Shown here piece by piece: positions 17,869 to 25,672 of a DNA stretch of 64,000 nt. Every line of letters begins with the position of its first letter. The stretch's first letter is position 1. The position numbers were made by a program, and so were the translations under genes. This DNA is from Spirochaetales bacterium. Lineage in GTDB: Bacteria; Spirochaetota; Spirochaetia; Sphaerochaetales; Sphaerochaetaceae. The DNA is taken from NCBI GenBank assembly GCA_018433865.1, contig JAHDQJ010000002.1, forward strand, positions 1-64,000, given 5' to 3'. Below the pieces are notes generated by a model. The model saw nothing but the letters and a program-made list of their open reading frames with translations. It ran no database searches and was not told the DNA's origin.

Positions 17869-18477
17869 CTAGCGGGAGTGCCTTCCCTTGAGCACTTCGA
17901 TCACCTCTTCGAGGCGGACATTCTTCTGTGCCAGGAGGACCAGCAGGTGATAGACGAGATCGGCTGCTTCACCGAGGAAGAGCGGCTTGTGGTCATCCAT
18001 CGCCTCGATGACCAGCTCCACAGCCTCCTCGCCGACCTTCTGGGCAATCTTGTTGATGCCCCGGGAGAACAGATGGTTCGTGTAGGATCCTTCCATAGGA
18101 TGTTCACGACGATCATGGATCACATCCTCGAGATAAAAGAGGAATTCGCTGTTACCCAAGCGTTCCGGATCATTTTCCTCTTCGAAGCAGGTGTCGCTTC
18201 CCGTGTGGCAGACAGGACCGGAGGGAATTGCCTTGACCAACAGGGTATCGTTGTCACAATCGGCGAGAATCTCCCGGACGGTCAGATAGTTGCCGCTGGT
18301 CTCACCCTTCGTCCAGAGCTTCTGCCGGCTCCTGGAGTAGAAAGTCACCAGGCCCCTCTCCTGCGTGATGCTCAGCGCCTCTTCGTTCATGTATCCGAGC
18401 ATGAGTACCCGGCGAGTCACGGCATCCTGTACGATGACCGGAACAAGTCCGTTGCCTTTGTTGAAATCGACCTGCAT
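17869..18477 (-). CDS. hisIE: Bifunctional phosphoribosyl-AMP cyclohydrolase / phosphoribosyl-ATP pyrophosphatase
   Basis: HisIE of 202 residues, catalysing steps 2 and 3 of histidine synthesis in the cytoplasm. The HisI half (1-110) shows LMLGYMNEEAL, TFYSRSRQKLWTKGETSGN and DCDNDTLL with the zinc Cys residues (CDND, GPVCHTG...C). The HisE half (about 112-200) has SYTNHLFSRGINKIAQKVGEEAVELVIEA and GEAADLVYHLLVLL, the MazG-like pyrophosphatase motif. It is the eighth and last his gene; 16 bases separate it from hisF. Confidence 0.95.
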   Translation of the reverse strand: MQVDFNKGNGLVPVIVQDAVTRRVLMLGYMNEEALSITQERGLVTFYSRSRQKLWTKGETSGNYLTVREILADCDNDTLLVKAIPSGPVCHTGSDTCFEEENDPERLGNSEFLFYLEDVIHDRREHPMEGSYTNHLFSRGINKIAQKVGEEAVELVIEAMDDHKPLFLGEAADLVYHLLVLLAQKNVRLEEVIEVLKGRHSR

Positions 18478-18493
18478 AGCGCTCTCCCCCCAC

Positions 18494-19276
18494 CTAACGG
18501 TTCAGGCGTATAGATATACCACGATTCGCCAAAAAAATCTTCAGTTCAGGGATATCAATCTCATGAAAGTGGAATATGGATGCAGCCAACGCGGCGTCTG
18601 CGCCACCTTCTTCGAATACCTGCGTGAAATGTTCCATGGTCCCCGCACCGCCGGAGGCGATGATGGGGATGCCCACGCTTTCAGAGAAACGACGGGTGAG
18701 CTCGACTGCGAAACCACCTTTCGTCCCATCGTGATCCATGGAGGTGAGCAGTATCTCGCCAGCTCCCCGTTGTTCGGCCTCCACAGCCCATGCAAGAGCT
18801 TCCCGTCCGGTCGGAATCCTTCCGCCCGCGACGTAGACCTCCCACCCTTGGAGCAATCCCTGGTCGAACGCGGAATTGGAACGTACGTCGATCGCACACA
18901 CCACACATTGCGAACCGAACTCCCGTGCGAGCGTATCCAGGATGGAGGGGTCATTCACCGCCATGCTGTTGATCGAGATCTTGTCCGCACCCGCTTCGAG
19001 CAACGCACCGACATCCCGCACGCTCCGGATACCCCCCCCCACGGTGAAGGGGATGTCGATCACATCGGCGATCCGCCTGACCAATTCGGTGAAAGTGCCG
19101 CGGTTCTCGATCGTTGCAGTGATATCGAGGAAGGTCAGTTCATCGGCTCCCTGCCTCGCATACAGGCTTGCCAGTTCCACCGCATCCCCTGCATCGCGAA
19201 GATTGATGAAGTTCACACCCTTGACGGTTCTTCCGTCCCGTACGTCGAGACACGGAATGATGCGCTTGGCCAACAT
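18494..19276 (-). CDS. hisF: Imidazole glycerol phosphate synthase cyclase subunit
   Basis: HisF, 260 residues, a TIM barrel that with HisH makes imidazole glycerol phosphate and AICAR. Visible motifs: [23 protein letters not shown] (catalytic Asp in CLDV), GGIRS phosphate loop, SINSMAVN, and DHDGTKGGF with the second catalytic Asp, then [13 protein letters not shown]. The start at 19276 lies one base after the hisA stop; the longer frame to 19372 is inside hisA. The C-terminus is normal for the family. Confidence 0.96.
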
Positions 19277-19277
19277 C

Positions 19278-20018
19278 TCAGGACTCCTTCGCCTGCCATG
19301 CGGCAAGCCGGACGATATCGATCGCCCCCTCATAGATCGCTTTTCCGATGATCGCTCCGGAAAGTCCCGCACGGGAGAGCACTTCCAAGTCCCCGAGGCT
19401 CCTGATCCCGCCGCTTGCGATCAGCTCGATTGCCAATCCATCGCGCGCGGCACGTGACATGATCGCCTCATACAGTGCGAGAGCGGGTCCGCTCATCATC
19501 CCATCCCTGCTGATATCGGTACTGACCACCTTGGTGAAACCTGATGACAGATACCCTGCGATGAAATCCACTACCGGCAGGTCTGTAGTCGATTCCCACC
19601 CCGAGACCGCTATCATGCCGTCACGGCAATCGGCACCGAGGATCAACCGCTCGCTCCCCCACCGGTGAAGAAGCTCCAGCGTCAAGTTCCTGTCACGTGC
19701 AGCGAGCGATCCCACGGTAGCCATCGCCGCTCCCGCATCGAACACCGAAGAGAAATCCTGAGCCGATTGCAACCCTCCGCCGACATCGATCGTGAGATCG
19801 ACCGATGCGCTGATGCGCTCAAGCATATCGAGGTTCCTCACCTGCTTGGCCCGTGCACCATCCAGGTCCACCAGATGCAGACGCCGCAATCCGCTTCCGG
19901 CAAATCGCTTGGCAACCTCGACCGGATCGGTGGCGTACACTTGCTTGGTGTCGTAGTCTCCCATGCGAAGGCGCACGCAGGAACCGCCGATGATGTCCAT
20001 CGCAGGTATGGCAATCAT
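19278..20018 (-). CDS. hisA: Phosphoribosylformimino-5-aminoimidazole carboxamide ribotide isomerase
   Basis: HisA, 246 residues, TIM-barrel isomerase (ProFAR to PRFAR). [22 protein letters not shown] contains the catalytic Asp (AMDI) and the family 'G..VRL..GD' signature; [12 protein letters not shown] is the first phosphate loop, [14 protein letters not shown] has the second catalytic Asp, and [12 protein letters not shown] the second loop. The start ATG overlaps the hisH stop (ATGA at 20015-20018). Upstream in-frame sequence to 20213 belongs to hisH. Confidence 0.95.
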
Positions 20019-20623
20019 GAGCGACCCTCCCCGAGCGCAAGGAAGTTCCTCAAGACTTGCTCGCCAACCGGTCCGCTCTTCTCCGGGTGGAACTGTACCC
20101 CACGATGATTCCCCCTCCCCAAGGCCGCGCTGAAGACCGTATCCCCATAGGTGCACGTCGCAATCGTCTCCCCGCAGAGAGGCACATGATACGAGTGGAC
20201 GAAGTAGAACCACGCGGGATCGGAGATGCCTGCAAACAGCGGATCAGAGGAACAGGAGACGGTATTCCATCCCATGTGCGGGACCTTGAGATGCTCCTTC
20301 CGTGAGAACCGGAGAACCGTCGGATCGAATATCCCGAGACATTCGGTCTGTGCCTCCTCACTGTGTGCGCACATCAGCTGCAACCCGAGGCAGATGCCAA
20401 GGAACGGTTGGGTAAGCTGGTGCAATACCGCATCGAGTCCTACCTCGCGCAGGTACCGCATTGCCGATGAAGCCTCGCCCACGCCGGGGAAGATGACATG
20501 CGACGCATCACGGAGCTTGCGAGGATCGTCGGTCACCTGGGCATCGAGTCCGAGGCGATGCAACGCACAGAGGACTGAGCGGATATTCCCTGCATTGTAT
20601 TTCACGATGGCTACCGAAGACAT
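20015..20623 (-). CDS. hisH: Imidazole glycerol phosphate synthase glutaminase subunit
   Basis: HisH, 202 residues, class I glutamine amidotransferase supplying ammonia to HisF. It has VAIVKYNAGNIRSV at the N-terminus, the oxyanion region VIFPGVGEASSAM, the nucleophile elbow FLGICLGLQLM (Cys in GICLG), and the His-Glu pair in GVQFHPEKSG. AAGGAG precedes the ATG at 20623, which overlaps the hisB stop by one base. All catalytic residues are intact. Confidence 0.95.
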   Translation of the reverse strand: MSSVAIVKYNAGNIRSVLCALHRLGLDAQVTDDPRKLRDASHVIFPGVGEASSAMRYLREVGLDAVLHQLTQPFLGICLGLQLMCAHSEEAQTECLGIFDPTVLRFSRKEHLKVPHMGWNTVSCSSDPLFAGISDPAWFYFVHSYHVPLCGETIATCTYGDTVFSAALGRGNHRGVQFHPEKSGPVGEQVLRNFLALGEGRS

Positions 20624-21579
20624 CAGAGCACTCCTTTCGTACTGGGCAACTCCAGGTTCCCCGGGTAACGGAAGACCGCACGCCTGACGGCCCGGCCGAA
20701 GGCCTTGAACAGTGCTTCCGCTTGATGGTGCGCATTTCCTGCGTTTACCTGCATGTGCAGGTTGCACCGGGATTCATCACTGAATGACTTGAAGAAGTGG
20801 CTGAACAGTTCGGTGGGGAAGGTTCCGATCACATCGCGGGAGAAGCTCACATCCCATGCGAACCAAGATCGTCCCGAGAAATCGAGTGCTACCTGTGCAA
20901 GGCACTCATCCATCGGAAGGATTTCGAATCCATAGCGGCCGATCCCGCGCTTGTCCCCCAACGCCTGCAAGACAGCTTGACCGAACACGATCGCGATGTC
21001 CTCCACCGTGTGGTGTTCATCCACCTCGAGATCCCCCTCGCAACGGAGCTGGATATCGATCTTGCCGTGTCGTGCAACCTGTTGGAGCATGTGATCGAAG
21101 AACGGCAAGCCCGAATCGATGGACGATTTGCCCGTCCCATCGAGATCGATAGCCATCTTGATGCGCGTTTCCTGGGTATTGCGCTCGATCCTCGCCCTTC
21201 TTGGCGGCAGCTCACTGGCCGTTCCCAACAGCTTCAGTACTGTCGGCCAATCGGTGAACGCGATCCTGCGGACACCCTGCGCAGCCTCCTGTGTCCCGAC
21301 AATGCAGGATCTGGCACGATCGAGCATCGGTACCGCAAGCACGGAAGGAACCGCCTCCTCGATGATGATCCCCTGCTCCTGGAGAACCCGGATGAGATGT
21401 CGTACGACCTCTCCTTCCGGTTCATCGCTGAGCAGATAGATACGGAATGTCCCCTCCTGGCAAAGAGTCTTCAATGAGCTGAATACGAGCGGGGTCCACT
21501 CGAACGGAACCGAACCGGTGATCAGTGGTCCTTCAGGCTCAACGAACAGCCCGACGATACGATTGTCCGCAAACTCCAT
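20623..21579 (-). CDS. hisB: Imidazoleglycerol-phosphate dehydratase with degenerate HAD phosphatase domain
   Basis: HisB-type fusion of 318 residues. The C-terminal ~190 residues are a complete IGP dehydratase: EVDEHHTVEDIAIVFGQA and NAHHQAEALFKAFGRAVRRA supply the manganese His/Glu ligands. The N-terminal ~128 residues align in order with the histidinol-phosphatase domain of bifunctional HisB but lack its catalytic residues: the DxDGT loop reads EPEGP (14-18), GDRATD reads GTQEAA (95-100), and no Cys-rich zinc loop is seen. So this half is probably a non-catalytic relic. GGAGGT abuts the first of three tandem ATGs (21585, 21582, 21579); spacing favours 21579. Confidence 0.9.
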   Translation of the reverse strand: MEFADNRIVGLFVEPEGPLITGSVPFEWTPLVFSSLKTLCQEGTFRIYLLSDEPEGEVVRHLIRVLQEQGIIIEEAVPSVLAVPMLDRARSCIVGTQEAAQGVRRIAFTDWPTVLKLLGTASELPPRRARIERNTQETRIKMAIDLDGTGKSSIDSGLPFFDHMLQQVARHGKIDIQLRCEGDLEVDEHHTVEDIAIVFGQAVLQALGDKRGIGRYGFEILPMDECLAQVALDFSGRSWFAWDVSFSRDVIGTFPTELFSHFFKSFSDESRCNLHMQVNAGNAHHQAEALFKAFGRAVRRAVFRYPGNLELPSTKGVL

Positions 21580-21581
21580 CA

Positions 21582-22664
21582 TCATACCTCCAATTCCTCA
21601 AGCGCACCGAGCAGCTGATCGTTCTCATCGGCACTGCCGACGGTGATCCTGACACAACCGTAACATCCCCTGACTGTCGATCGGTTACGGATGATGATGT
21701 GCCGCTCACGCAGAGCGGTACAGAGCCGATCGGGATCGGTCACCCGTACCAACAGGAAGTTCGCGTCGCTGGGAAACACTTTCTGCACGAAGGAGAATTG
21801 CTGCAGGCTCCGAGTCAGCCGGGCCCGTTCGGCTTTCATGAACACGATATAGCGCCTTACATCATCGGCTCGTTCGAGTGCTTCGATCGCGACCTCTTGC
21901 GCGATACCGCTCAAGTTATAGGGGTACTTGACCTTGTGCATCGCATCGATGAGTTCTTTCGGTCCCACGGTGATGCCGATCCTTGCATTCGCAAGTCCCC
22001 AGGCCTTCGAGAGGGTCCTCAGTACGACCAGACGGGGACATCGACCCATGAGGGTGACCGCAGATTCCCGTTCGGAGAAATCGACATATGCCTCGTCGAT
22101 GATGGTCACCCCCTTGAACCTGTTCGCCATGCTCTCGATCTGTTCAAGCGGAAAACTGTTCCCCGAAGGATTGTTCGGCGAACAGATGAAAAGCAGCTTG
22201 TGCATGCCGGTCTCAGGGGTCCCATTGTTCACCATGTGGCAGATGGTCTCCATGTTCGCAAGGTTGAGGGAGAAATCATCCTTGAGCATGCAGTGGGAGA
22301 CCCCCACATCGTTGATATCCGCGAACACCTCATACGCGCCGTAGGTCGGCGACATCAAGAGAACCTTGTCCTTGCGCGGTTCGCAGAATATCCTGAACAG
22401 CAGATCGATCATCTCGTCGCTTCCGTTGCCCAGGACCATACGATCCTCGGGAAGCGACATGACTTTCGACATCATCCGCTTCAGGTCGCGGTGCATGGGA
22501 TCGGGATAGCGGTTGCGCCCATGATTCCCCACGAAATCCCGCCAATGTTCGTTGGCATCGAGGAAGACTTTCGCCGCTCCGGAAAATTCACTTCGGGCTG
22601 ATGAGTAGGGAATCAACCTCACGATATTCGGTCGCATCAGCTCCTTGATCTTGTACTCAATCAT
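21582..22664 (-). CDS. hisC: Histidinol-phosphate aminotransferase
   Basis: HisC, 360 residues, fold-type I PLP enzyme. It has DANEHWRDF for the family 'D.NEN', NRYPDP, GNGSDEMIDLLFR, SPTYGAYEV, ICSPNNPSGN (PLP-binding Asn), IIDEAYVDF (Asp and Tyr), and LRTLSKAWGLANARIG with the Schiff-base Lys. The start ATG at 22664 overlaps the hisD stop as ATGA; the frame upstream to 22769 is hisD sequence. It converts imidazole acetol phosphate to histidinol phosphate. Confidence 0.95.
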   Translation of the reverse strand: MIEYKIKELMRPNIVRLIPYSSARSEFSGAAKVFLDANEHWRDFVGNHGRNRYPDPMHRDLKRMMSKVMSLPEDRMVLGNGSDEMIDLLFRIFCEPRKDKVLLMSPTYGAYEVFADINDVGVSHCMLKDDFSLNLANMETICHMVNNGTPETGMHKLLFICSPNNPSGNSFPLEQIESMANRFKGVTIIDEAYVDFSERESAVTLMGRCPRLVVLRTLSKAWGLANARIGITVGPKELIDAMHKVKYPYNLSGIAQEVAIEALERADDVRRYIVFMKAERARLTRSLQQFSFVQKVFPSDANFLLVRVTDPDRLCTALRERHIIIRNRSTVRGCYGCVRITVGSADENDQLLGALEELEV

Positions 22665-23983
22665 GTGCTCACCTCGCAATTCCTTGACAATCGAATCCGC
22701 ACCGCTTCGGCGTGTGCATCCAGAGACTCTGCTTCGGCCATGATCCGTATGTCCGGACCGAGGGAACACAACGCTTTCCGCTCAAGCCGTTGGAACGTGA
22801 TCTTCTTGAAATAGCTGTCCAGGGAAACTCCGCCGTAGGCTCGCGCCCACCCGTTGGTCGGCAGTGTATGGTTCGTCCCCGATGCATAGTCTCCTGCCGA
22901 TTCGCACGACCAAGGACCGATGAATACCGAGCCGGCATTCCTTACGTAACCGGCCAACACCTCGGCGGTTGCGCTCTGGAGCAACAGGTGCTCCGGCCCA
23001 TACGAGTTGATCACCATCACCGCCTGCTCGGGTTTGGTGACGATCACCGCCTTGCTGTGGCCGAGCGACCGGACAGCGAGATGACGGCGCCCCAAGCGGG
23101 AAAGTTGGTTATCCAGGTGGTGTTCCACCGCATCGACCAACAGGTCTCCTGCGTGCAGATCGTCGGCGATCACGACGAGAATCGCCTGACTGTCCGGCCC
23201 ATGCTCAGCCTGGCTGAGCAAATCTGCTGCAGCGAAGGCAGGATCGGCCGCATGATCGATCACCACCATCACTTCACTCGGGCCTGCCGGCATATCGATC
23301 GCGCATGCGCTACCGGAAACCTGGATCTTCGCCTCGGTGACGAACCGGTTGCCTGGTCCGAATATCTTGTCGACCTTCGGAATGCTCTCGGTACCCCAGG
23401 CCATCGCACCGATAGCCTGTGCGCCGCCTACCGCGAACACCTCGGTGACACCGCTGATGTATGCAGCGTGGAGGATCGCGGGGTGGATGGTGCCATCGGA
23501 CTGAGGCGGAGTACAGAGGATGATACGGGAACATCCCGCGATCGTGGCGGGTACGGCGAGCATCAGGACCGTGGAAAACAGCGGCGCGCTTCCTCCGGGG
23601 ACATAGATGCCGACTTGTTCGATCGGCACGCTCTTGCGCCAACAGAAGATTCCCGGTTCAGTTTCGATGTGCTCGTCATTCGGTTTCTGTGCCTCATGGA
23701 AACGCCTGATGTTATCCCGAGCCCTCGCGATTGCTTGGCGCAAGGCAGCCGGCAACAGAGTTCCTGCATTGGCAAGCTCTTCTCCGGAGACTCCCAGACG
23801 TGCAAGCGATACACCGTCGAATTTGCGGCCGTACTCGAAAAGCGCCTCGTCACCCCGATCTCTCACCTCCCGGAGTATGCGTGCGACCGTAGCCGAGACA
23901 TCCTCACCCGTATCGGTCGGTCGTGCAAGGAATCGTGGCAAATCCAGGTACGAGGGGTCGAATATCCGTTCCAGCCAGTTCAT
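22661..23983 (-). CDS. hisD: Histidinol dehydrogenase
   Basis: HisD, 440 residues, full length for the family. Zinc and catalytic regions are visible: GSAPLFSTVLMLAVPA, VAGCSRIILCTPP, GPGNRFVTEAKIQV, DMPAGPSEVMV, LLSQAEHGPDSQA (Glu/His), the GPEHLLL helix and the SAGDYASGTNHTLPTNGWARAYGGVSLDSYFKK zinc region. It oxidises histidinol to histidine in two NAD+ steps. It starts 15 bases after hisG with only a G-rich ribosome binding site, so some coupling to hisG is likely. Confidence 0.96.
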   Translation of the reverse strand: MNWLERIFDPSYLDLPRFLARPTDTGEDVSATVARILREVRDRGDEALFEYGRKFDGVSLARLGVSGEELANAGTLLPAALRQAIARARDNIRRFHEAQKPNDEHIETEPGIFCWRKSVPIEQVGIYVPGGSAPLFSTVLMLAVPATIAGCSRIILCTPPQSDGTIHPAILHAAYISGVTEVFAVGGAQAIGAMAWGTESIPKVDKIFGPGNRFVTEAKIQVSGSACAIDMPAGPSEVMVVIDHAADPAFAAADLLSQAEHGPDSQAILVVIADDLHAGDLLVDAVEHHLDNQLSRLGRRHLAVRSLGHSKAVIVTKPEQAVMVINSYGPEHLLLQSATAEVLAGYVRNAGSVFIGPWSCESAGDYASGTNHTLPTNGWARAYGGVSLDSYFKKITFQRLERKALCSLGPDIRIMAEAESLDAHAEAVRIRLSRNCEVST

Positions 23984-23998: not shown

Positions 23999-24859
23999 TC
24001 AATCAGCCATCTTCTCGATGGCGGTCACGAGTATGCCTTGCGCACCGAGAGCCTTGAGCTGTTCCAAGACATCCCAAAACCTCTCTTCCCTCACGACAGT
24101 CTGCACTGCGCACCATGCTTCGTCGAGCAGAGGGGTGACGGTAGGACTCTTCATGCCCCCGATGATCGCGGCAGCCTCGTCCAGGTGTTCCTTCGGAAGG
24201 TTGAACATGATGTATTTGTAGTCATCAGCACGCATGACCGCATCGATGCGCAGCAACAACCGGTTGAGTATCGTCCGCTTCTCTGCAAAGAGCCCGGGAT
24301 GACCGATCATCACCGCGGTGGACCAGTAGATCGCTTCGGTCTCCCGCAGTCCGTTGCTCACCAGCGTGGCACCTGTGCTCACGAGATCACAGATGGCATC
24401 GGCGACGCCGATGGAAGGGGTGATCTCTACCGATCCGGAGATCTCATAGATGCGGGCGTTCACGTGCGCCTGCGCCAACTTGCGTGCAAGGATGCCTGGA
24501 TAGCTCGTCGCAATGCGCTTGCCCTCGAGCGAGTTCAGTCCCTCGTAGGCGAAGCCCTCGGGAACTGCGATCGAGAGACGGCATTTGGAGAACCCAAGGT
24601 CGCGCAAGACCTCCAGTTCCAAGCCTTGCTCATCGTATTCATTCCTTCCCACGATCCCGATATCGGCAACACCATCGTACACATAGCGCGGGATATCATC
24701 ATCGCGAAGGTAGAGGAACTCGATCGGGAAATTGTCCGCCTGCTCCTTCAGCAACCTGGAATCGGATCCGAACCGGATGCCGCAGTCCCGTATGATCTGC
24801 AATGACTTCTCGCTGAGTCTTCCGCTTTTCTGCACCGCAATCCGCAATCTGCTCTCCAT
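23999..24859 (-). CDS. hisG: ATP phosphoribosyltransferase (long form)
   Basis: HisG of 286 residues, first enzyme of histidine synthesis. This is the long form with its own C-terminal regulatory domain (about 210-286, ACT-like, binding histidine), so a HisZ partner is not needed. Motifs: IAVQKSGRLSEKS, DDDIPRYVYDGVADIGIVG and DLVSTGATLVSNGLRE, the PRPP loop. GGGAGG precedes the ATG at 24859. The gene begins 18 bases after the U-tract of the attenuator, so expression depends on read-through. In-frame sequence up to 24922 crosses the terminator and is not coding. Confidence 0.96.
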   Translation of the reverse strand: MESRLRIAVQKSGRLSEKSLQIIRDCGIRFGSDSRLLKEQADNFPIEFLYLRDDDIPRYVYDGVADIGIVGRNEYDEQGLELEVLRDLGFSKCRLSIAVPEGFAYEGLNSLEGKRIATSYPGILARKLAQAHVNARIYEISGSVEITPSIGVADAICDLVSTGATLVSNGLRETEAIYWSTAVMIGHPGLFAEKRTILNRLLLRIDAVMRADDYKYIMFNLPKEHLDEAAAIIGGMKSPTVTPLLDEAWCAVQTVVREERFWDVLEQLKALGAQGILVTAIEKMAD

Positions 24860-24876
24860 GACAACCTCCCGAGGGT

Positions 24877-24905
24877 AAAAAAAAGACTCCGCGAAATGCG
24901 GAGTC
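24877..24905 (-). terminator. Histidine operon attenuator terminator
   Basis: GACTCCGC and GCGGAGTC arms (8 base pairs, 5-base loop) are followed by eight consecutive T residues on the minus strand, 18 bases before hisG. The 5' arm and loop can instead pair with GAATGCGAGT (24926-24935), which would prevent this terminator from forming. Confidence 0.92.
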
Positions 24906-24925
24906 GTCAGTTTGCATGTCAACGC

Positions 24926-24973
24926 ACTCGCATTCCATCAAGATCCTGAGATGTGGTGATGGTGATGAAGTGC
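24926..24973 (-). promoter_or_regulatory. his attenuator pre-emptor and antiterminator segments
   Basis: Segment 1, GCACTT (24968-24973, just before the His codons), can pair with GAGTGC (24924-24929) in segment 2. Segment 2, GAATGCGAGT (24926-24935, just after the leader stop), can pair with ACTC-C-GCATTTC of the terminator 5' arm with one bulge. A ribosome stalled at the His codons would cover segment 1 and free segment 2 to form the antiterminator; a ribosome at the stop codon would cover segment 2 and let the terminator form. Confidence 0.7.
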
Positions 24974-24988
24974 CGTATTCCTGTTCAT
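24938..24988 (-). CDS. hisL: Histidine leader peptide (five consecutive His codons)
   Basis: A 16-residue frame MNRNTALHHHHHISGS followed by TGA. Five His codons in a row (CAT CAC CAT CAC CAC, 24953-24967) lie just upstream of a strong intrinsic terminator and hisG, the standard layout for translation-controlled attenuation of his operons. No Shine-Dalgarno sequence is seen; a candidate -10 hexamer ends 6 bases before the ATG, so the leader may be translated from a leaderless or near-leaderless transcript. The function is inferred from the codon run and RNA pairings, both directly visible. Confidence 0.88.
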   Translation of the reverse strand: MNRNTALHHHHHISGS

Positions 24989-24994
24989 GACATC

Positions 24995-25023
24995 AGACTA
25001 CCGAACGGCTTTGGCCGTGTCAA
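24995..25023 (-). promoter_or_regulatory. Candidate his operon promoter
   Basis: Minus-strand TTGACA (25018-25023, perfect -35) and TAGTCT (24995-25000, weak -10) with a 17-base spacer. It lies in the short gap between the DUF308 stop (25028) and the leader peptide ATG (24988). The predicted start site falls at or just before the ATG. Confidence 0.55.
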
Positions 25024-25027
25024 TAGC

Positions 25028-25615
25028 TCAGGACTTCTCACCCGATACTGTTTCGGCACTCCCCACGATCACGTGGGCATTCCTCTTGCGGATCCACAGT
25101 GCAACGAAGCCGACGGTCATGCCGATGACGATGATCGTGATGCCAAGGATGGTCACGAGCAGGTCCGCCACGCTTTTCGGGAACAGGAACAACATCGCGG
25201 CGAGGATGATCGAGACAATGCCTTCGGTCACCAGCGGGGAAGCGGGGAACCCTGCGGAACGTACGGCGATTGCATCGATGAACATGACGATCGCACCCAA
25301 AACCATCTCAGCCGCCAGGACATAGATGATCACTGTCCACGCAGCCTCGCCGGTTGCCAGGGGCATGATGACCGCAAGCACGCCGACGATGATGCCCAAG
25401 ACGCCCTTCACCAAGGTCGTCATATGGTTGAAACGGTTGAAGGAGTATCTGTTCATCGTCGCGAGCGAGGTGATCCCGGTGACGATGGCGACGATTCCCA
25501 ATGCGATCACGAGGATCTGCTTGAACAACTCCTGACGGACCAGGATGAATATGCCCAGGATCACGATCAGTATCGCGATCAGCAGCTGTACGATCCACCG
25601 TCCTTTAGCCTTCAT
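25028..25615 (-). CDS. DUF308 (HdeD-like) multispanning membrane protein
   Basis: A 195-residue integral membrane protein with six hydrophobic helices arranged as the HdeD/DUF308 pattern (IVQLLIAILIVILGIFILV, ILVIALGIVAIVTGITSLA, LLVTILGITIIVIGMTVGF). Family members are linked to acid or envelope stress in enterics, but the function here is unknown. The ATG at 25615 has AAAGGAG 5 bases upstream; a GTG two codons earlier is less likely. It has its own promoter in the divergent region with the HAD gene. Confidence 0.85.
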   Translation of the reverse strand: MKAKGRWIVQLLIAILIVILGIFILVRQELFKQILVIALGIVAIVTGITSLATMNRYSFNRFNHMTTLVKGVLGIIVGVLAVIMPLATGEAAWTVIIYVLAAEMVLGAIVMFIDAIAVRSAGFPASPLVTEGIVSIILAAMLFLFPKSVADLLVTILGITIIVIGMTVGFVALWIRKRNAHVIVGSAETVSGEKS

Positions 25616-25672
25616 ACGCACTCCTTTCTCCGCCCGGGCGTTGCATCTGCCGCCCTTGGTCGGTATAGTAGC

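Follow-up and report, generated by a model that had tools for sequence, protein, structure and literature searches.

In the window, by which we mean the whole 64 kb stretch of DNA analysed here, transcription of the his operon is very probably controlled by ribosome-mediated attenuation, with a leader peptide translated from a leaderless transcript. Transcription is predicted from the sequence to start at the leader ATG, the leader to be translated, and the RNA to terminate before hisG in response to histidine. This would be a leaderless His attenuator in a phylum, Spirochaetota, where such a device seems to be undescribed. A frame of His codons precedes hisG here and in 70 relatives, and an intrinsic terminator lies between the leader and the structural genes, as is characteristic of this functional class. 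All of the elements described below are present on the minus strand (Table 1). An earlier note on this DNA, which did not state the strand, had pointed to a 16-residue frame with five consecutive His codons, a strong intrinsic terminator and hisG, and each of them was found.

Table 1 Features of the his locus in the window and the proposed roles of the leader segments
Feature	Position	Strand	Remarks
-35 box TTGACA	25018..25023	-	Exact consensus; at most one mismatch in 60 promoter-bearing relatives
-10 box TAGTCT (TANNNT)	24995..25000	-	17 bp 3' of the -35 box; position and TANNNT form conserved
Leader frame MNRNTALHHHHHISGS	24938..24988	-	16 codons; ATG at 24988, 6 nt after the -10 box; predicted leaderless
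Five His codons in a row, CAT CAC CAT CAC CAC	24953..24967	-	Putative sensor
Segment 1 GCACTTCAT	24965..24973	-	Putative 5' strand of the 1:2 (protector) hairpin, lying in codons that a stalled ribosome would cover
Segment 2 GGAATGCGAGT	24926..24936	-	Putative partner of segment 1, or of the terminator 5' arm and loop (antiterminator)
Intrinsic terminator GACTCCGC-ATTTC-GCGGAGTC, segments 3:4	24885..24905	-	8 pairs, 6 of them G-C; loop ATTTC
Run of eight T ending the terminator	24877..24884	-	
Shine-Dalgarno site of hisG, GGGAGG	24865..24870	-	hisG is Shine-Dalgarno-led in 37/37 loci, unlike the leader
hisG, long-form ATP phosphoribosyltransferase	23999..24859	-	286 aa; ATG at 24859; TIGR00070 and TIGR03455 over cut-off
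hisD, hisC, hisB, hisH, hisA, hisF, fused hisIE	17869..23983	-	From NCBIfam models and reading frames

Promoter and leader frame of the his locus

The -10 box in the window agrees with TATAAT at three of six positions and was overlooked by a generic promoter scan. The 6 bp that separate it from the leader ATG read GATGTC on the minus strand, and no Shine-Dalgarno site was found 5' of this ATG. No other His run as long as this His5 run is present in any of the six frames of the window, but runs of four occur at three other places, so that a His run by itself is weak evidence.

Two minor observations concern the surroundings of the promoter. A frame for a small hydrophobic protein (25028-25621, minus strand), for which no NCBIfam match was found, stops 5 nt short of the his -35 box. 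At the fifth position of the -10 box, 44 of 59 his leaders, counting the window (24995-25000) and its relatives, have G (TANNGT), compared with only 5 of the 28 other promoters of leaderless type in the window's genome; this perhaps reflects a deliberately weak promoter or a constraint on the start site.

Conservation of the leader across relatives

A His-rich leader (a short frame with at least three His, including a His run) was present in 46 of the 51 hisG loci examined first, some of which were copies of one genome from two collections, and a terminator followed the leader in 37 of 37 distinct loci. Wider sampling yielded 70 distinct His-run leaders with a terminator upstream of hisG, coding for peptides of 10–22 aa; their longest His run measured 2–6 residues, and in 67 of the 70 this run comprised at least three His. 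The residues around the run, N-terminal ones included, vary freely, while the frame and the run are constant. Each of the first five His positions is encoded by CAT in some leaders and by CAC in others (totals of 175 and 90), and this use of both codons at the same positions indicates selection on the amino acid. It is conservation in relatives that raises the His leader above chance. Tallies from a first whole-family pattern search, which mixed true leaders with chance matches inside genes, are excluded from this evidence.

Beyond Sphaerochaetaceae, leaders were found in families f3, f4 and f17, as well as in f5, there without a clear promoter. Eight more candidates from f24 and f42 precede hisG genes only ~29–32% identical to that of the window; their promoter-ATG gaps are 6–9 nt, and one candidate (L166) lacks a clear terminator. 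No His leader was found at a further set of hisG loci (L048, L160–L165, L167–L169, L171, L174–L176; most of f24), nor at any of the hisG loci tested in several further families.

The equivalent pattern with Trp codons (TTGACA...ATG...TGGTGG) gave only chance-like matches in 21 genomes, and no parallel trp attenuator was found. The window's genome also has no match to trpE (PF04715), while two species of the same genus have one; a tryptophan auxotroph or an assembly gap are possible explanations.

Evidence for a leaderless start

Where a promoter could be recognised (60 leaders), the first in-frame ATG followed the -10 box after 6 nt in 51 cases, 7 nt in seven, 8 nt in one and 10 nt in one, three of these gaps having been read by eye. 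The distance from the -35 box was 35.9 ± 0.8 nt to the leader ATG and 117.8 ± 6.5 nt to the terminator. Since transcription from sigma-70 promoters starts ~7 nt 3' of the -10 box, a gap of 6–7 nt would place +1 at the A of the leader ATG or immediately next to it. For the window, the predicted +1 coincides with that A or falls within about 1 nt of it, in keeping with the 'nearly leaderless' ATG that had been suggested earlier, and the leader is predicted to be leaderless.

A Shine-Dalgarno-like site before the leader ATG was absent in 36 of 37 loci; at one of these 36, L043, inspection by eye revealed an AAGGAG slightly further upstream. In the window, the first T of TAGTCT lies 12 bp before an ATG that has no Shine-Dalgarno site, as expected for leaderless mRNA: leaderless genes have been predicted genome-wide in Spirochaetes, their sign being a TANNNT ~12 bp before the start (PMC3160421). 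The promoter-plus-ATG pattern matched 29 times in the window's genome versus 3 times for a reversed-pattern control, and most matches open long, genuine gene frames. A leaderless start would therefore seem to be the normal state in this lineage, with leaderless genes common in the same genome. It had been seen at the outset as unusual and a possible weakness of the attenuator, an objection that falls away given this background and the leaderless attenuators known in Sinorhizobium, Streptomyces and mycobacteria.

Some two dozen ordinary genes in the window's genome (loci L082–L110) appear leaderless; judging from their first residues, genes of this type include what we take to be leuS, alaS, glmS, rnhB and the gene of a CCA-adding enzyme. 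At one his leader (L158, genome G193), an ATG directly follows the -10 box and an in-frame GTG lies 6 nt after it, which suggests a leaderless GTG start.

Terminator and alternative pairings

The three mutually exclusive pairings proposed in the earlier note fold as drawn, that is, GCACTTCAT with ATG.GAGTGC, GGAATGCGAGT with ACTC.CGCATTTC, and the terminator. The leader folds with -33.7 kcal/mol (z -3.25 versus shuffles). Mean upstream pairing of the terminator 5' arm was 0.67 with a stalled ribosome, 0.29 without a ribosome and 0.44 with a ribosome at the stop codon; when spacers were shuffled, the stalled state gave 0.49 (paired tests p < 1e-7, a significance that is overstated because the relatives are not independent). 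Segment 2 paired with the leader frame at 0.63, versus 0.44 for shuffled leaders.

Partner-swap tests were used instead of column-wise covariation counts. When partners were exchanged between 52 loci, a locus's own pairs were better for the antiterminator (z -7.6), hairpin 1:2 (z -4.4) and the terminator (z -14.9), and 0 of 20000 permutations were as good as the own partners, although the relatedness of the loci inflates the significance of this test as well. A compensating change from GGAATGCG/CGCATTTC in L024 to GGGATGCG/CGCATTCC in L029 was found, where the duplexes listed for these and other loci are the best found and hence complementary by construction. The terminator loop was consistently recruited by the antiterminator. 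Mutually exclusive antiterminator and protector pairings are thus present and better than in shuffled and swapped controls. Covariation counts from a MAFFT alignment of eight leaders were dropped, as terminator loops of unequal length were misaligned.

Even with a stalled ribosome, the terminator remains the favoured fold at equilibrium in most loci (mean 0.70–0.76, 37 loci), so the switch decision must be kinetic, which is also a property of classical attenuators. The window's own gain in the stalled state is modest (0.86 versus 0.72 without a ribosome). Where leaders are short, segment 2 would stay uncovered by a ribosome at the stop codon.

Proposed mechanism and rival explanations

We propose that RNA polymerase would start on the A of the leader ATG or on an adjacent base, so that a ribosome could load on the 5'-terminal AUG. 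With ample His-tRNA, the ribosome would pass the His codons, reach the stop and either cover segment 2 or allow the 1:2 hairpin to form; the terminator would then fold, and transcription would stop before hisG after ~110 nt. With scarce His-tRNA, the ribosome would stall on the His codons and cover segment 1, leaving segment 2 to pair with the terminator 5' arm and loop, and the polymerase would enter hisGDCBHAF-hisIE. If no ribosome were loaded, the 1:2 hairpin would form and termination would be the default. The same default should apply to readthrough RNA from the same-strand frame upstream, in which the leader would have no ribosome-binding site; this would be an attractive consequence of the arrangement. 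The earlier view of the locus as a case of his attenuation has survived the conservation test, with His runs, both codons, terminators and compensating pairings recurring across the class. As regards a transcription start downstream of 24938, which would contradict this view, the promoter in relatives keeps a fixed place relative to the leader ATG.

A bolder reading, which we consider rather improbable, takes leaderless attenuation to be the way in which the class Spirochaetia generally controls its his genes, and to be ancestral there. It would antiterminate only RNAs started exactly at the ATG, because the leader has no Shine-Dalgarno site, and reject readthrough; besides His-tRNA, it would report the choice of start site and the capacity for leaderless (70S-type) initiation.

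The same attenuator might instead have a conventional leader start on a 5'-leadered transcript, arising from an unseen upstream promoter or from readthrough of the upstream gene. Such readthrough is conceivable given how close the small same-strand frame ends to the -35 box, and Shine-Dalgarno-led leaders do exist in eight species of genus g12. However, the leader ATG lacks a Shine-Dalgarno-like site both in the window and in almost every relative outside g12, unlike hisG with its site in 37 of 37 loci, and the spacing between promoter and ATG is fixed; we therefore judge a conventional start to be improbable to a high degree. That an ordinary terminator merely happens to follow a His-rich frame with no regulatory role can be given almost no weight: runs of at least four His are indeed present four times in the six frames of the window, but the idea is contradicted by the comparative data, with the run, its distance and the terminator conserved in 70 loci, the flanking residues variable and the pairings compensating.

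The T-box regulation of his genes in Firmicutes (PMC9413887) brings to mind a His T-box, or some other element that senses a tRNA or a ligand. Either is very unlikely here, as no T-box or riboswitch covariance model matched positions 24700–25200 up to E 5, the RNA from promoter to terminator is only ~110 nt long with nearly half of it coding frame, and the His codons are its most conserved part. A question of origin rather than of mechanism, which would be unchanged, is whether the attenuator is not native to spirochaetes and came with a horizontally acquired E. coli-type his operon. The gene order hisGDCBHAF-hisIE is as in E. coli, the bifunctional E. coli-type model is the best match to HisB without reaching its cut-off, and the nearest solved structure to HisG is 1h3d. 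On the other hand, leaderless-type His leaders also precede the distant hisG genes of f24 and f42, so the device is independent of any single operon, and the RNA is not recognised as a member of the proteobacterial RF00514. We see transfer as possible but unlikely.

Relation to known attenuators

Attenuation of his operons is classical in Gammaproteobacteria. The window's leader reached 15.9 bits with the Rfam model His_leader (RF00514), against a gathering score of 49 (E 4.3). Like the enterobacterial RF00514 leaders, it has consecutive His codons and protector, antiterminator and terminator alternatives before hisG of a hisGDCBHAFI operon. Unlike them, it has no 5' leader or Shine-Dalgarno site before the ATG, and its antiterminator uses the terminator loop as well as the 5' arm. 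It would work like His_leader while standing outside the RF00514 sequence-structure family.

In Firmicutes, His attenuators have been predicted in three lineages, the Bacillus cereus group, Peptostreptococcaceae and Erysipelotrichales (PMC9413887), and hisZ/hisS leaders have been predicted as well (PMC2965389). They resemble the present case in having three to five His codons in a row, a terminator and an antiterminator, and in being comparative predictions; the Firmicutes leaders belong to another phylum and partly to other genes, and the available parts of the two sources report no leaderless start. The broad survey of 2010 (PMC2965389) knew leader-peptide systems only from Proteobacteria and Actinobacteria, to which it added bacilli; spirochaetes go unmentioned in its main text.

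Leaderless attenuators have precedents elsewhere. For trpL of Sinorhizobium meliloti, leaderless attenuation was shown experimentally: as predicted here, the 5' end of the RNA is the leader ATG (of a 14-aa peptide) and regulation of a biosynthetic gene is ribosome-mediated, but the amino acid is tryptophan and the host an alphaproteobacterium (PMC7298713). Leaderless leader peptides are known for leu, trp, ilv, met and thr in Streptomyces lividans (PMC8079986), and mycobacteria have polycysteine frames that are leaderless (Canestrari et al. 2020, cited in PMC9031893). Like the His leader, these frames are short and leaderless, abound in the amino acid that is sensed and precede metabolic genes; they differ in belonging to Actinobacteria and in the amino acids, and several have no clear intrinsic terminator. 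A search of the open-access literature found neither a His attenuator nor a leaderless attenuator described in Spirochaetota. The present data would add this phylum to those predicted to use leader-peptide attenuation, as an unusually clean comparative case.

Shine-Dalgarno-led leaders in genus g12

In eight species of genus g12, the locked promoter is missing and an AGGAG-like Shine-Dalgarno site precedes the leader ATG; several of these leaders have a promoter further upstream, and the His run and the terminator are retained. Leaderless leaders occur all around this subclade and in other families. On the hisG tree, the Shine-Dalgarno-led leaders require two changes. The preferred interpretation is a single switch, in a g12 subclade, from leaderless starts to Shine-Dalgarno-led ones, together with one reversal or retention (G062). 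A lock between promoter and ATG held over many genera and released in one subclade constitutes a natural experiment, and the contrast within g12 lets one ask how the mode of ribosome loading affects the timing of attenuation.

The his operon and its proteins

The genes are ordered hisGDCBHAF-hisIE, and the relatives of the window's hisG come from Sphaerochaetaceae and other Spirochaetota. The best solved relative of HisG is 1h3d, as noted above. In HisB (20623-21585, minus strand), ~108 N-terminal residues without a family match are followed by a good dehydratase domain. As a whole, the protein fits the model of the bifunctional E. coli-type HisB best, though with a score below the cut-off, and the unmatched part may be a decayed phosphatase domain.
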